A stretch of DNA of 64,000 nt from Paludibacter sp. (GTDB lineage: Bacteria; Bacteroidota; Bacteroidia; Bacteroidales; Paludibacteraceae): the NCBI GenBank assembly GCA_028691965.1, contig JAQUYE010000004.1:1-64000 (forward strand). Reading direction: 5' to 3'. Numbering within the stretch: the first letter of the stretch is position 1; the number at the start of each line of letters is the position of its first letter. Below the pieces are notes generated by a model, which saw only the letters and a program-made list of their open reading frames with translations, was not told the origin of the DNA and did no database searches. Made by a program: the position numbers and the translations under genes. Positions 20,624 to 54,802 of this stretch are shown here, one piece after another.

Positions 20624-21010
20624 GTTTTCCCCCGTTCCCCCAATTTTATCTCAACTATATTTATAGGAATAACTGTGCACAAGTTGTTCAAATATAGATG
20701 TATACATATAATATTCTTCTTTTTTATATTTTTTGTATTTTACAAAACAGACTAGTATAAAAAGTGGTAAAAAAATCGTGCAGTCGTACGAAAGTTAAAT
20801 TTTGAAACTTAAACACCTAAATAACAGATAATTATAGGCGCACGATTTTTGCACGATTTTGCACGATTCGTACTTTTCCGCACGATTTTTAAAATCGTAC
20901 GGTTTTTTTTAAAAATGAACGAAATCGTGCAAAAAAAGTACGGCCATATATTGTTGATATACAGCATACTATGTTACTATGATTGATGTTTTGCACTTCT
21001 GCACGATTTT
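20599..21010. repeat. Cluster of GCACGATTTT-type iterons in both orientations
   Basis: GCACGAT/ATCGTGC at 20599, 20774-20781, 20840, 20851, 20861, 20880, 20924-20930, 21001. Confidence 0.75.
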
Positions 21011-21155
21011 TTACCTGTATTTTCGATAAGGGGGGTAGTCAAATTTAGATAGTTTTATCATTTTTTTTTGGTGGGCTTAGAAATTATTGTTATATTTAAT
21101 AATTAATTAAATATATGATTATCAGTTTTTTAATTTTAAAATTCAATGCTATATT

Positions 21156-32313: not shown

Positions 32314-33678
32314 ATGGATATTCTGTTCAATAAAGATGGCGCACCCTTGATGCTTTCGGCGAAAAGCTTTTTTGCTGCAACGACCGGAGTGCCAAAAGAA
32401 GCTCTGGACGAAATTAAGAAAAAGCAAAAAAAAGTTGCTGACACCAAAACGGATCAGGATTTTACACGTCTCGACGGTATTGAACTGCTTTCGTGGGGAT
32501 CTAATAACGACTTTCCTCAGTGGGCCGATAAGATCATTACGTCAACAAGCGTGTTGAATTCGGGGCTGAAGTTTATCAGAAACTTTACGCTTGGACAGGG
32601 AATATTTGCGTGTAAAGTTGTTGGGTATGATCCAGATGGTAATGAAATACTTGAGCAGTATCCGGATCCGGCACCACAACAATTGGTGAATTCGCCTAAA
32701 ATAAGACGGTATATGGAAAAAGCCGGTAGGGATTATTTTAAATACGGCTCGTCGGCTGTTCAATTAATTCCAAATGTTGATGGGGATAAAGTTGTTGGTT
32801 TGAATCCTATCAATGCTTATTTTTTTCGCCTTAGTACACGTGATGTTAAGACAGGTGCAGAAAAATGTATTATTTCGGGTAAATTTCCGGACAATCCATC
32901 AAAAAGCGAATTTGAAGCCATAGACGTGCTGATGGATTATGATGCAGAACTCGATCTTGATCTTCGCCGGTATAATGGTAAAGGAAAAGAAAGTGTAATA
33001 TTTATGATTCGGGACTCGTGGAGCAATAAAGATACCTACTCGGAACCGGTGTGGTTGTCGGCTTACTTGGCCGGCTGGATTGATATCGCTAAGTCGGTAC
33101 CAACTTATCTGCAGAAGGTATATAAGAATCAGGCAACGTGGAAATGGCATATACAGATACCGTATAAATTTTGGGACCGGAAGTTTCCACTGGCTGAATT
33201 TGATGATGTTACAAAACGCCAGGAGGCGATAGAAAAATATATGGATGATATTGAAACAAATCTTCTAGGGTCTGAAAATGCTGAGAAGCCTTTGTTTACT
33301 TTTTATGAGTCGAACGACAATGGCAAGATTGAAGAGGAGTGGAAAATCACGCCGTTGGATAATAAGTCGAAGGAGGGCGATAAGCTGGTGACTTCGGCTG
33401 CTGCAAATAGTGAAATATTGTTTGCATTGATGATTAATCCTAATGTTCTTGGTGCGGGTATGCCGGGCGGAACTTATGCCGGTAATCAAGGGGGAAGCAA
33501 TATTCGTGAAGCATTTTTGGTAAATGTGGCAAACGCCTGGGTTGATCGGCAGAACCTGCTTGATCCAATTGAAATTACGCTACGTTACAATGGCTATTCG
33601 GACATTGTGTTACGATACAGAAATACTGTGCTGACAACCCTTGATAAAGGCGCTGGAACAAAAAAGACTTTATCCTAG
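32314..33678 (+). CDS. Phage portal protein
   Basis: LSWGSNNDFPQWADKIITSTSVLNSGLKFIRNFTLGQG; portal-like length and position. Confidence 0.7.
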   Translation: MDILFNKDGAPLMLSAKSFFAATTGVPKEALDEIKKKQKKVADTKTDQDFTRLDGIELLSWGSNNDFPQWADKIITSTSVLNSGLKFIRNFTLGQGIFACKVVGYDPDGNEILEQYPDPAPQQLVNSPKIRRYMEKAGRDYFKYGSSAVQLIPNVDGDKVVGLNPINAYFFRLSTRDVKTGAEKCIISGKFPDNPSKSEFEAIDVLMDYDAELDLDLRRYNGKGKESVIFMIRDSWSNKDTYSEPVWLSAYLAGWIDIAKSVPTYLQKVYKNQATWKWHIQIPYKFWDRKFPLAEFDDVTKRQEAIEKYMDDIETNLLGSENAEKPLFTFYESNDNGKIEEEWKITPLDNKSKEGDKLVTSAAANSEILFALMINPNVLGAGMPGGTYAGNQGGSNIREAFLVNVANAWVDRQNLLDPIEITLRYNGYSDIVLRYRNTVLTTLDKGAGTKKTLS

Positions 33679-33827: not shown

Positions 33828-34025
33828 ATGAATACAAGAGTCGCGATAGGTAATAAAATAGCAGAAATTCGTAACCAGAAAAAAATGAGCCAACAGGAGT
33901 TGGCCGACTTAACTGGTTTAACTCAAAATAATATATCCAGGATAGAACAGGGAAAGTATTCATTCGGGATTGATATTTTATTCCGAATCGTTGATGTTTT
34001 GGGTAAGAATGTTGAAATTGTATGA
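33828..34025 (+). CDS. XRE-family HTH protein
   Basis: IGNKIAEIRNQKKMSQQELADLTGLTQNNISRIEQGKYSFGIDILFRIVDVLGK. Confidence 0.85.
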   Translation: MNTRVAIGNKIAEIRNQKKMSQQELADLTGLTQNNISRIEQGKYSFGIDILFRIVDVLGKNVEIV

Positions 34026-34039
34026 TTAATTTTAATGCT

Positions 34040-34486
34040 ATGAAGAAAGTTATTTATGGTTTAATTGTCATTGTATTTTGGAGTTGTACGTCTACTAACA
34101 AGATATCGTATCAACTTAATTCTCTTTATGTTGATTATAACGAATATCATGAAAAAGGATTCTTTGTATCCGAATCTAATTCTGTTAGTTTTGATTATCA
34201 GTCAATTGGTAGTATTATAGTTCAATCAAGGGAGGGATTTGAAATAGTGGGTTCGACTTTGTCGGCTGGTTTTAACAAGTATGGCTCTGTATCAGAGATT
34301 GAGGTACCAAAGTATGGAAAGTATAAAAACGCATCACTAAAAGAGGCATTTGATGAACTATATAAAATTGCCCTGGAGAAAGGTGCTAATGGAGTAATCA
34401 ATTTTAAATCGGAGTACAGAGCATATAACCCTGAATACAATAATCTGGAGATATGGGTATTAACCGGTATGTTGATAAAAATGTAG
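34040..34486 (+). CDS. Putative lipoprotein (moron candidate)
   Basis: MKKVIYGLIVIVFWSCTS lipobox; C-terminal EKGANGVINFKSEY loosely YbjQ-like. Confidence 0.6.
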   Translation: MKKVIYGLIVIVFWSCTSTNKISYQLNSLYVDYNEYHEKGFFVSESNSVSFDYQSIGSIIVQSREGFEIVGSTLSAGFNKYGSVSEIEVPKYGKYKNASLKEAFDELYKIALEKGANGVINFKSEYRAYNPEYNNLEIWVLTGMLIKM

Positions 34487-34568
34487 GTTTTACAGTTGCG
34501 TATTATTAATTTAATAAAATAACTGTCGAAATATTTGGTAGATTAAAATCTTATTTTAATCTTTGCAG

Positions 34569-34737
34569 TGCGTAATGATTTAATAGGCTGGTATACCAGC
34601 TCCACTGCATCAACTGCACGTGGATTTTTTATTGGAATATAACACATTAAGGGCGGTGCCCTTTCCGAGCCGGTTAGCCCGGTATCAGCCTATTGGTCGT
34701 TACGCAGCGGAAAGTGAGCACCGCTTCTTTTGTGCTC
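34569..34737 (+). ncRNA. Structured RNA / 5' leader with long closing stem, internal hairpins and possible H-type pseudoknot
   Basis: Arms 34569-34590 and 34686-34706 pair over ~21 bp with wobble; internal agggc/gccct and ccgg hairpins; interleaved agcgg/ccgct and gagcac/gtgctc stems. Confidence 0.5.
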
Positions 34738-34764
34738 TAAAATCTAAAAATGCGTAACGACCTC

Positions 34765-35004
34765 ATGAAAACAAAAACAACACAGTTCGGATCCACTCCG
34801 GAAAGAATTGAAAAAACAAAAGAGCTTGACACTAAACAGGCTTTGGAATTATTAAAGTATCTTTACCTGCAGGTTCGCAAGGAACTTAAGACAACACCTT
34901 CAACATCGGTACATGCCATTCGTAACGTTGATACTACTGCGTTAAATTTTAAAAGTAATGGGTTCGAGCTACATATCATTGCAATGGAAGGAGGTGAGTT
35001 ATGA
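34765..35004 (+). CDS. Hypothetical phage protein
   Basis: ORF 34750; internal ATG 34765 possible. Confidence 0.45.
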   Translation: MKTKTTQFGSTPERIEKTKELDTKQALELLKYLYLQVRKELKTTPSTSVHAIRNVDTTALNFKSNGFELHIIAMEGGEL

Positions 35005-35243
35005 CACAAGTAGATGGTTTTACAATAAGTCCGGATCTTGTAGTGTTGTTAAAGTTGTGGCAGGATATGGAGATTCCTGAATCGTATATTAATGAGTTAT
35101 TGAATATTCAGGATTACTTATCCAGATTGTTAGGGGAAAATTTATCTGATTTGAACGAGCTAGCTCAGTTATCACTTCACATTAATACTTTGGTAGGAAT
35201 TCGTGATCAGTTAAAGCATCTTCAACCTTTAATACAAAACTAA
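35001..35243 (+). CDS. Hypothetical phage protein
   Basis: ATGA overlap with previous ORF. Confidence 0.45.
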   Translation: MTQVDGFTISPDLVVLLKLWQDMEIPESYINELLNIQDYLSRLLGENLSDLNELAQLSLHINTLVGIRDQLKHLQPLIQN

Positions 35244-35244
35244 T

Positions 35245-35547
35245 ATGAGTAAAAAGCGTACGATTGGATTTGTACAGCACGATGATGCTGACGATCCACG
35301 CCCTGAAGAACGAGATTATTTAAAAGAGGCTATTGAACGAATATGGAGTCCGGAAGGAGAAACTGAAAACATGGATTTCTATTCGCCAATTATGATCCAG
35401 GAGTTTATTGGTGAATGGGCCTCGGGCACTTTCAGGCAAATTAATGATACCATGACCAAAATGGGTTTCAGATCGACCACCCTGGATGGCTTCCATTGCT
35501 GGATAGTGTACGAAAAAAATAAAGTGCCAGACGAATTTGGTATGTAG
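35245..35547 (+). CDS. Hypothetical phage protein
   Basis: ORF in operon. Confidence 0.5.
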   Translation: MSKKRTIGFVQHDDADDPRPEERDYLKEAIERIWSPEGETENMDFYSPIMIQEFIGEWASGTFRQINDTMTKMGFRSTTLDGFHCWIVYEKNKVPDEFGM

Positions 35548-35552
35548 TGTTT

Positions 35553-35586
35553 AAAAAAGGTGTTTGTAGATCAGGCACCTTTTTTT
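35553..35586 (+). terminator. Rho-independent terminator
   Basis: aaaaaaggtg...cacctttttt. Confidence 0.7.
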
Positions 35587-35643: not shown

Positions 35644-36606
35644 ATGATATTCAGCAAAGAAAAATGGAACAACGCATCAGAGTTACAGCCATACATAAGT
35701 GTGTCTAGATCGTCTGAATTTACTGCATTTGAAGGCCCTCTTCGGAATGCATTTGAAATATTTATCCGTCCGCTATTGGGCGAGGATCTTACTGCAGATA
35801 TGGTAGCCATCTACCAAAAAGCCACACCCAACATTAAGGAAAAAAGATTACTGGAGCTTGCTCAGAGGGCTAATGCTTTTCTAGCCCTATGGTATGATTA
35901 TGATGAGATGCAGATAACTATCAGCAATGCAGGAGCTAAGAGGCAGGAGTCGGGTGAGACAAAGACTCCATACAAGTATCAGGAACAGGCACTGAAAAAA
36001 GGATGGAAAGATAAGGGATTTGCTGCACTGGATACATTATTGACATTTTTGGAAAATGAAGTTGTCGATTTTCCTAATTACAAATCATCACCTAATTACA
36101 CTCAGTCGCGTACTGACATTGTACGTTCGACAACGGAGGTAAATGAGTGCTATTGGATTGCTAATAGCAGGATTATTTTTCTCAGATTGAAGCCACATTT
36201 TAAAACCGTGATTGAAACTTTTGTGGCTCCTCGCCTGGGCAGTATATACACTTCATTGGTAGATGAGTTGATTAAAGAGACACCTGAGCAAAAGTATATA
36301 AAGCTACGAAAAACATTGGTACCTGTAGTTGTAATGATGGCTGTTGCTCGCTTAATGAGAGAGACTGGTAGTATTACAGAAAAGGGTTTGTTTTTTCAGG
36401 CGCTTAAGAATTCGGATGATATGTACTATACTTCGCCTGTAGCGCTTGAGATGATTTCGATACAGGCTAATACGGCCGAAAATGATGCTCATCAATACTG
36501 GGCATTAGCTGAAAAAATATTGAGATCGGAGTTTAATTACTCAGCACCTTCATCGGCCAGGATACCCAATCGTGATAATGCTGATAAAAAATCGTTTTGG
36601 GCATGA
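35644..36606 (+). CDS. DUF6712-like phage structural/connector protein
   Basis: MIFSKEKWNNASELQPYISVSRSSEFTAFEGPLRNAFEIFIRPLLG. Confidence 0.55.
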   Translation: MIFSKEKWNNASELQPYISVSRSSEFTAFEGPLRNAFEIFIRPLLGEDLTADMVAIYQKATPNIKEKRLLELAQRANAFLALWYDYDEMQITISNAGAKRQESGETKTPYKYQEQALKKGWKDKGFAALDTLLTFLENEVVDFPNYKSSPNYTQSRTDIVRSTTEVNECYWIANSRIIFLRLKPHFKTVIETFVAPRLGSIYTSLVDELIKETPEQKYIKLRKTLVPVVVMMAVARLMRETGSITEKGLFFQALKNSDDMYYTSPVALEMISIQANTAENDAHQYWALAEKILRSEFNYSAPSSARIPNRDNADKKSFWA

Positions 36607-51667: not shown

Positions 51668-53436
51668 CAGAAATATATATTGATAAAACGGCCGTTGTAC
51701 TACCTAAAGAATTTAGTTTTAAAACTTTTGATGAAAACCCAAGGTACACGAAAAATGGCAGTTATAGCCTTGATATTGATTTATCGTTGAATAATGTTAT
51801 TAACAGTAGATTGTATCGGCACATTAACCGTATTCATAGTCGCGCAATATTCACCGGTCGAAGTGTTATAATTAAGGCTGATGGTAATAAAGAATTTGTA
51901 GGAAAAGAAGTCATCCTGGGATTCACTAATAGTACTGTTAGAATACAAATAATTGCCGGTAATTCGGATCTGAATTTTAATCTAAGAGAGGATAAGATAA
52001 GAAATCTTAATTTGGGAAGCGTGACATATAAGTTCATTAGTGATCCTGACACAAATCCGGATAATTTTTGGATAGCAGATAATGAACCTTTTGAAGTATA
52101 TCTTAATCAGCGGTATCCTTCAAAGAATTTTATCCATGCCCCTTTTTATGCTGAAGATGCCGGCCAGTTTTGTAACCAATGGTTGTACACGAACCAGTCA
52201 GCTCCAGGGATCCCTACATTAGGCCCCAATGGATTATTTGTAGCACAGCCATACATAAGTGCCATTATCAATAAAATTATCAAATACTATGGTTATACAG
52301 TCGAACACAATGATATAGAGCTTGATCAGGGTTTTTCTGAATTGTACATTGTACATGGATATAATACAAATGAATATGCAAAAATGCTGCCGGATTGGAC
52401 TGTAAAGGAATTCTTCGAGCAAATTGAAAAGTTGTTCAATTGTACATTGATTGTTAATCCGCAAAATCAGGCTGTTTCTATTGTATTTAACAATCAATAC
52501 TTCAAAACATCCGATACTAATGTCCTTAAAATGATTGATGCATATGAATGTGAGAACAATCCTGAAAATACAATTGATTATTCAAATGCAAATATTGGAT
52601 ATGATTTGGATGATTGCTTATATTATAGGTATGCCAGACTTGATAAACGTATTGATAATATGGCCTTATCGGACTCTTATGTTGATGCTGCTGATTTGTA
52701 TGCTAAAATTAATGATGCAGCAGACATACAGCGTCATATAAAGATTTTCAGTGGACCCCTTGGTGATTTTATATCCAGGAAGATACCGGACAGCACATAT
52801 TTTTTGGCTCAACGGGTTAATGAGATGAAGGATTTATCACAAAATCAGAAAGAAGATCTGGATATTACGTTTAAAATAATGCCTGCCCCAATGAAGCAGG
52901 TGATCGATTATGTATATGATATGGGATCTGTAGATAATTATCCGTATTGGAATCAGTATCCGGTTGTGCTTAAATCGGAAAAATATGACCAGGCAAATTT
53001 GGTTAATATTGACGATGTATTGACTCAGGAATTAGAGTTGCCGGAAGAAAAACTTCAAAGTAAAATGTATTTAGCTGTTTATACCGGTATGCAGCTAATT
53101 GACTATGTAAATGATGTTCCGTCATATAGTTTGCCAGGAATACCAATGTCTTATACGACATATTTAGCATCATACTTTGATGGACGACAAGAACCCAGAT
53201 TTTTCCAGTCTGGGGGGGCTTTAAAATTAGAAAGGTTAAAGGATACAAAGTATAATTCGGATGAAGTTGATACTACACGAAAGTTTAGAATATCATTTAT
53301 AGCCAACAAGAATATTGATATACGCAATTTTTTCAACTTTAACAATAAACTCTATGCTTGCATCAGGTTAGAAAAAACATTTAATCATAAGGGTTTAAAC
53401 CAAATTTTTAGTGGTGATTTTTACCCCCTGAAATAA
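51664..53436 (+). CDS. Phage tail/baseplate protein
   Basis: Follows tape measure. Confidence 0.55.
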   Translation: MTEIYIDKTAVVLPKEFSFKTFDENPRYTKNGSYSLDIDLSLNNVINSRLYRHINRIHSRAIFTGRSVIIKADGNKEFVGKEVILGFTNSTVRIQIIAGNSDLNFNLREDKIRNLNLGSVTYKFISDPDTNPDNFWIADNEPFEVYLNQRYPSKNFIHAPFYAEDAGQFCNQWLYTNQSAPGIPTLGPNGLFVAQPYISAIINKIIKYYGYTVEHNDIELDQGFSELYIVHGYNTNEYAKMLPDWTVKEFFEQIEKLFNCTLIVNPQNQAVSIVFNNQYFKTSDTNVLKMIDAYECENNPENTIDYSNANIGYDLDDCLYYRYARLDKRIDNMALSDSYVDAADLYAKINDAADIQRHIKIFSGPLGDFISRKIPDSTYFLAQRVNEMKDLSQNQKEDLDITFKIMPAPMKQVIDYVYDMGSVDNYPYWNQYPVVLKSEKYDQANLVNIDDVLTQELELPEEKLQSKMYLAVYTGMQLIDYVNDVPSYSLPGIPMSYTTYLASYFDGRQEPRFFQSGGALKLERLKDTKYNSDEVDTTRKFRISFIANKNIDIRNFFNFNNKLYACIRLEKTFNHKGLNQIFSGDFYPLK

Positions 53437-54586
53437 ATTTATCAAAACAGCTTATTCCACGCTGCTTTGTTTTTTCAAGAGCGTGCACATAACTCATGGT
53501 TTGTTTGATATCAGAATGTCCTAGTATAGTTTGTAATGTTTTAGGATTTGGGTTATTTTCAAGAAAAATTGTGGCAAACGTATGCCTGCCAGTTTTAAGT
53601 GTAACCTTCTTTTTTATATTTAACTCATCAGCTATAGTTTTAAGATATCTATTCATTGTCTGTTCGGCAGGTAGCTTTTCAAATATTTTGCCCGTATCGC
53701 GATCACCAAGTACGTCGGCAAGTATTATTCTTACCGGCATAGCCAATGGCACTGTAACTGCTTCCGGCTTTGAATTAAGTAATTTCTTACGGAAGTATGT
53801 GAAAGAAACGTTGTTGAATTGTTCTGTTCTCATATCAGCTGCATCGCCAACATGTTGAGATCCGAAACATAGAAATAAAAAGAATTGAAGAGTGGTAAAA
53901 TACTTTTTGTCTAGGTAATAATCCCGGTAAAGCAACCAAAATTTAAGTAGCTCTTCTTCCTCCAAAAACACCACATTTGGTTTTGATCTTTTAATGCTTA
54001 AATCCGAGAATGGATTATCATCCATATATCCTTCGCGGATTGCCTGCAGTACATATTTTTTAATTACACTTAGGTTTTTGTGAGCGGTATTGTCATTGTT
54101 GCCAATATCTTTTTTTAGATACACCAGGTAATCTTCCAGGAAGTCTTTCGTTATTTGCTCAAAATATAGGTCTGGTTCGTAATATGATAGCTTTTTGAGT
54201 GCTGAATTATGTAGTTTGATTGTATTAATATTGAGCCTACGTCGTGTTCTATGTAGATAATCGACGCAGTAGTCATGAAATGTTTGAAAATCGTCCGGCC
54301 GATTATATGATTTTAGAAATTTTTCTTTGGTTAACACCCGATCTTTTAAACGATATTTTACTTCTACATTATTTATCCTTGCCAGAATGTTGGTCAGTAT
54401 TAAATTTTTATCGGATGAGTAAATGTCTGATGCTTTTACTCTCATTGATTTTTCACTCCAGTCTTTTAGTGCACATTTTACTTTTGTTGAAAAATGGACT
54501 TTTTCCTTATTCAGGTAAAAGATAACCTCAATTGTACCAATGGTTTTGTTCTTTGAGCAGCGATTTTGTAGTTTGACTTTTATCAT
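53408..54586 (-). CDS. Tyrosine-type site-specific integrase
   Basis: GRHTFATIFLENNPNPKTLQTILGHSDIKQTMSYVHA catalytic region; adjacent to tRNA. Confidence 0.93.
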   Translation of the reverse strand: MIKVKLQNRCSKNKTIGTIEVIFYLNKEKVHFSTKVKCALKDWSEKSMRVKASDIYSSDKNLILTNILARINNVEVKYRLKDRVLTKEKFLKSYNRPDDFQTFHDYCVDYLHRTRRRLNINTIKLHNSALKKLSYYEPDLYFEQITKDFLEDYLVYLKKDIGNNDNTAHKNLSVIKKYVLQAIREGYMDDNPFSDLSIKRSKPNVVFLEEEELLKFWLLYRDYYLDKKYFTTLQFFLFLCFGSQHVGDAADMRTEQFNNVSFTYFRKKLLNSKPEAVTVPLAMPVRIILADVLGDRDTGKIFEKLPAEQTMNRYLKTIADELNIKKKVTLKTGRHTFATIFLENNPNPKTLQTILGHSDIKQTMSYVHALEKTKQRGISCFDKFISGGKNHH

Positions 54587-54729: not shown

Positions 54730-54802
54730 TGGTGCCACCAGGAATCGAACCGGGGACACAAGGATTTTCAGTCCTTTGCTCTACCAACTGAGCTATGGCA
54801 CC
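54730..54802 (-). tRNA. tRNA-Phe (GAA)
   Basis: Reverse complement folds as 73-nt cloverleaf, anticodon loop CTGAAAA, TTCGATTC T-loop. Confidence 0.95.

Follow-up and report, generated by a model that had tools for sequence, protein, structure and literature searches.

A pseudoknot-containing, predicted bistable leader RNA in phages of Bacteroidales

Phages and bacterial toxin genes are known to use messenger RNAs whose alternative folds control access to the translation start. The 5′ leader of the MS2 maturation gene, cited as an example of metastable regulation (PMC6733600), probably acts by delayed folding, in which an upstream complementary sequence seals the initiation site after a transient hairpin has kept it busy. 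In type I toxin mRNAs, including hok and aapA3 (PMC6733600) and timP (PMC11228461), mutually exclusive folds and an anti-RBS strand sequester the start site of a small first ORF; timP also has a pseudoknot. Pseudoknot riboswitches such as SAM-II and preQ1-II appear to place an H-type pseudoknot a few nt before the start codon, where it alternates with other pairings. In the Bacteroidetes, Weinberg et al. (PMC2864571) described candidate motifs found by covariation, among them Bacteroidales-1, Bacteroides-1 and Bacteroid-trp, but phage gene control in this phylum is poorly known.

Here we describe a leader RNA in a prophage of Paludibacter sp. that resembles the MS2 leader in its likely working principle, but belongs to a DNA phage, has its own promoter, carries the decoy strand at the 5′ end, and contains an additional pseudoknot with its own exclusive partner; there is no sequence relation. 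No antisense RNA promoter is conserved and the first-gene families are diverse, which separates it from the type I toxin mRNAs, and in contrast to timP, where the pseudoknot is in the active form, here it nests in the predicted sealed form. Compared with the pseudoknot riboswitches, the pseudoknot itself is not the helix that sequesters the start site, and no ligand is known. A search of Rfam 15 found only a tRNA in the window (the whole 64,000-nt stretch analysed, JAQUYE010000004.1 positions 1 to 64,000, assembly GCA_028691965.1). The best sub-threshold match to the leader region was on the opposite strand and far below the cut-off, and no family matched in the loci of ten relatives, including those Weinberg motifs that are deposited in Rfam. 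No description of this RNA was found in the literature searched, the coverage of which was partial.

Anatomy of the leader and its operon

The window is contig 27 of a 3.04-Mb, 167-contig genome and contains a prophage, with a CHC2 primase (14.7 kb), a ClpP-type protease, a portal-type protein (32314–33678, assigned by similarity to annotated phage portals), a DUF6712 head protein (35644–36606), a muramidase, a tape-measure-like protein, and a tyrosine integrase (53408–54586, minus strand) beside a tRNA at 54730–54802, a probable prophage attachment end. The RNA, on the plus strand, lies between the portal and DUF6712 genes, after a small Cro/CI-type HTH gene and a lipoprotein-like gene (33831–34486); other portal-linked phages have different small genes at this position. 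It heads three small genes (34765–35547), and the stretch from 33.7 to 35.6 kb is bounded by two terminator-like hairpins, one of which, with a T run, follows the third gene at 35557–35586.

The leader is roughly 195 nt long. A Bacteroides-type promoter (34534–34568) consists of a –33 type TTTG (34534–34537) and a –7 type AATCTTTG (34558–34565), the latter ending 3 nt before a 5′ arm (34569–34590) at the presumed transcript 5′ end; the TAnnTTTG/TTTG consensus is that of sigma-ABfr (PMC7366714). The 5′ arm pairs with the 3′ arm (34686–34706) to form helix P1, a duplex of –32.6 kcal/mol when the adjoining bases are included. The last 12 nt of the 3′ arm (34695–34706) are also perfectly complementary to 34751–34762, a copy of the 5′ arm that forms the ribosome-binding region (helix P2). 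Folds of 145 nt and 205 nt beat all 200 dinucleotide shuffles (z = –5.4). In the minimum-energy fold of 34566–34770, the outer 12 nt of the 3′ arm pair with 34751–34762 while its inner part stays paired with the 5′ arm, whereas the whole 3′ arm pairs with the 5′ arm when the sequence stops before the copy, amounting to strand exchange at the outer end of one helix.

Between the arms lie a terminator-like hairpin (34601–34624) followed by T6 (34625–34630) at about +57, a segment X (34653–34667, GCGGTGCCCTTTCCG), and a small hairpin GCCGG-TTAGC-CCGGT (34669–34683). The 3′ arm is followed by an H-type pseudoknot (34706–34737) composed of S1, AGCGG/CCGCT (34706–34710/34721–34725), and S2, GAGCAC/GTGCTC (34716–34721/34732–34737), with a pyrimidine-rich third loop, TCTTTT. 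The two stems share C34721, so that 4+6 or 5+5 bp can form at once. Segment Y (34706–34725) of the pseudoknot can alternatively pair with X.

The first-pass annotation, which proposed a structured leader with two mutually exclusive pairings, an H-type pseudoknot and a promoter at the 5′ arm, is supported, with three changes. It took 34750 as the start of the downstream ORF, but the start codon is most likely ATG 34765, since in the relatives the ATG lies 10–23 nt after the copy begins; the sequestered segment is thus the ribosome-binding region and not the ORF. Two elements that it listed as small hairpins are reassigned: CCAC...GTGG is followed by T6 and has the form of an intrinsic terminator, and AGGGCGGTGCCCT is better read as half of the long-range helix X:Y, which it had missed and which excludes the pseudoknot.

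ORF1 (34765–35004) encodes 79 aa with no Pfam or PHROGs family. Like ORF1 of most elements, it ends in a KGGE/GGE-like motif (34985–35004) that encodes a strong Shine-Dalgarno (GGAGG) for the next gene, which is unusual for Bacteroidota and suggests translational coupling. The second gene (35001–35243, 80 aa, no family) resembles by eye the second ORF of L009, one of the related loci described below, but gave no tblastn match. The third (35245–35547, 100 aa) belongs to a family of about 90–110 aa proteins (pattern EFKTS-EL..E....M...MGF....WVMY) that recurs near the RNA in most portal-linked phages, with homologues in loci L004, L007, L009, L012, L014 and L016; no Pfam family was found for the window and L138 members, and no PHROGs family.

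Relatives of the leader and covariation of its helices

Nucleotide searches of named phages with the window RNA gave no match, and a rumen relative gave one weak hit in phages and none in plasmids. Protein searches of viral contigs with ORF1 and with the 100-aa ORF returned nothing, and a 21-nt exact match in a same-genus genome (L002) lies in a coding region without the other elements and was treated as chance. Searches with the DUF6712 and portal proteins, however, gave about 140 phage or prophage loci, and in three of these (L009, L004 and L012) the gap between portal and DUF6712 holds the same arrangement with different letters. A three-strand descriptor nominated more, but it was noisy by itself, with reversed-sequence controls reaching 114, similar to some real elements. 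It therefore served only to nominate candidates, which were kept on promoter, start codon and syntenic evidence and then tested with a covariance model.

Twenty accepted elements were aligned over the 3′ arm, pseudoknot and copy to build this model, which gave one strong hit per locus at the nominated place. The model hit 11 of 393 sampled genomes of the order Bacteroidales; one hit (L155) lacks the promoter, 5′ arm and X and was rejected, leaving 10 including the window's own. A phylum-wide sample of 396 genomes added only one genome, with two simple inverted repeats. Hits L157/L158, simple inverted repeats without the pseudoknot, were likewise rejected, and L134, which has the arms but no pseudoknot, was left out. 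Although the model holds only the 3′ arm, pseudoknot and copy, the genomes newly found by it carry upstream the promoter box, a 5′ arm, the U-rich hairpin and X, except that L145 lacks the 5′ part. In total, we found about 55 distinct relatives in Bacteroidales phages and prophages, including many environmental and gut viruses.

The pairing between 3′ arm and copy, 12 nt in the window and 12–24 nt in relatives, is supported by covariation. In the 20-sequence alignment, 91.6% of cells were paired, against 33–42% when the strands were slid, 17 of 18 pairs had double-sided changes, and the covariation score was 0.814 against 0.199 shuffled. With 54 elements, in an alignment fitted to the model, the helix was 93.7% paired and the whole structure 93.6%, with a whole-structure score of 0.701 against 0.158 and no shuffle reaching it. 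In a test free of that bias, a pattern fixing only the pseudoknot core found 32 stretches in viral contigs; in the 24 distinct elements the arms pair at 365 Watson-Crick and 11 GU of 384 positions, and 21 of 24 pass a strict promoter plus 5′ arm criterion. A few of these 24 coincide with no earlier element and a few lie in phages already seen.

In partner-swap tests, the pairing of 5′ arm with its own 3′ arm averaged –28.5 vs. –10.4 kcal/mol for swapped partners and was the best in 31 of 31 elements; that of 3′ arm with copy averaged –24.5 vs. –8.7 kcal/mol and was the best in 31 of 32; and that of X with Y averaged –28.3 vs. –21.5 kcal/mol, with 0 of 2000 permutations reaching the observed value in each case. 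The strands of pseudoknot S2 change together in 32 elements (own –7.34 vs. –4.31 permuted, 0 of 2000), e.g., GAGCAC/GTGCTC, GGGCAG/TTGCCC, ATGTACAG/CTGTACAT and TAGCGAAA/TTTCGCTA, whereas S1 (ACGG/CCGT) is nearly invariant and says little by itself.

TTTG of the –7 box ends 4 nt before the 5′ arm in 25 elements, 3 nt in 4 and 5 nt in 2, providing indirect support for a transcript starting near 34570. The promoter-to-copy length has a median of 208 nt (range 153–291). At +44 to +83, a hairpin of –5 kcal/mol or stronger precedes a T run in 28 of 31 elements, vs. 17% of control T runs; in many, the 3′ side of this hairpin can instead pair across the U run, and in one rumen group the U run is degenerate. 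No ORF is conserved across the leaders, arguing against leader-peptide attenuation.

Proposed switching mechanism and alternatives

Comparative sequence evidence shows a promoter placed so that transcription should start at the 5′ arm, a pivot strand (the 3′ arm) with two conserved, exclusive partners, and a second pivot segment (Y) that pairs either within its own pseudoknot or with X. From this we infer, with reasonable confidence, a cis-acting, bistable 5′ leader that controls translation of the first small gene of the operon. In this proposal, P1 and possibly X:Y form first as RNA polymerase leaves the promoter and keep the 3′ arm busy; once the copy is transcribed, it can capture the 3′ arm, with the pseudoknot forming inside the P2 loop, and initiation is shut. 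The 5′ half would thus be an anti-sequestrator, and ORF1 would be translated only in a time window after synthesis or when an unknown factor holds the RNA in the P1/X:Y state. Nested folding is consistent with this order: before the copy is transcribed the 3′ arm pairs with the 5′ arm with a mean probability of 0.90, whereas in the full leader the copy takes it (0.61 vs. 0.27), and over the same 16 nt the copy is the stronger partner in 26 of 31 elements. However, about 9 of 31 elements do not reach the sealed state in the full leader, mostly favouring P1, and because free-energy models ignore pseudoknots, the balance of P1 plus X:Y (the latter strong, at about –28 kcal/mol) against P2 plus pseudoknot is undetermined.

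A ligand- or protein-sensing switch, in which the conserved pseudoknot/X core is an aptamer or a site for a protein such as a late phage regulator and the arms are only the expression platform, remains a tentative possibility. The core (ACGGG..ATGGCAGCCGTTT, X, U-rich hairpin) is conserved in sequence while the arms vary freely, and the architecture resembles that of pseudoknot riboswitches. The conservation of Y and X is, however, partly explained by their mutual pairing, and the downstream genes differ (small proteins, antirepressors) and name no metabolite.

It is less likely that the leader is primarily a transcription attenuator or antitermination site, in which the +44 to +83 hairpin stops most transcripts and the downstream structure governs readthrough. 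The prevalence of the terminator-like hairpin, the T-rich stretch after S1, and the occurrence of modules at the head of several structural operons in one phage favour this reading, but the degenerate T run of the rumen group suggests that termination is not a universal step, and attenuation does not explain the 12–24 bp helix over the start region, the best conserved pairing. A trans-acting RNA, with the arms as targeting segment, is doubtful; early termination would free a 5′-arm RNA, and copies in one genome have different arms, as if cross-pairing were selected against, but each arm's conserved partners are in cis within the same leader, although second targets were not sought genome-wide.

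A type I toxin-antitoxin mRNA with a self-inhibited start site is very unlikely. ORF1 is small and sometimes membrane-type, the full-length fold is predicted to be inert, and multiple copies with different arms occur as in the hok/sok and aapA families, but TAnnTTTG was found on the opposite strand in only 6 of 60 elements, and with a –33 box in 3 of 60, and the ORF1 families are diverse and often soluble. A DNA-level feature (recombinase or inversion repeats), or an intron or ribozyme with the 5′ arm and copy as exon ends, can be all but dismissed despite the inverted and direct repeats of the arm sequence around a compact element, since the three-strand relation, the pseudoknot covariation, and the fixed distances to promoter and start codon are RNA-leader features and the element is too short for known self-splicing introns.

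Genomic contexts and divergence of the arms

The module is not tied to one gene. ORF1 is small, soluble or membrane-type, and without Pfam or PHROGs families where tested, and in two elements (L150 and L153) the next gene is a BRO-N antirepressor. One 41.6-kb virus record holds three modules, two of them ahead of a ClpP-type protease and a tape-measure gene, and a 62-kb record holds four. Within these, ORF1 DNA can be 96–97% identical and the pseudoknot core 96–100%, while the arms are 50–83% identical, mostly near the 51% background, each copy keeping its own complementarity. In IMGVR_UViG_2883843030_000004, for example, three RNA+ORF1 modules (L183 2068–2370 and 10387–10700, and L173 2317–2614) have ORF1 DNA 96–97% identical but different, internally complementary arms.

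Arms thus change fast, and in three places together. We take this as a hint of selection against cross-pairing, although mutation by template switching between repeats is an alternative. A more speculative and rather unlikely extension is that the arms are private addresses through which leaders interact in trans, sensing or silencing matching transcripts, e.g., from co-infecting relatives or sibling operons, with selection keeping the addresses apart.

A natural half-deletion was seen in a pair of modules 17 kb apart (L159/L160, G551:C2), the second of which (L160 5861) keeps X, 3′ arm, pseudoknot and copy but has lost the 5′ arm and promoter. The three-strand descriptor also surfaced, in the phage early region of the window (20773–21050), a cluster of direct and inverted copies of GCACGATTT / AAATCGTGC that is iteron- or operator-like.
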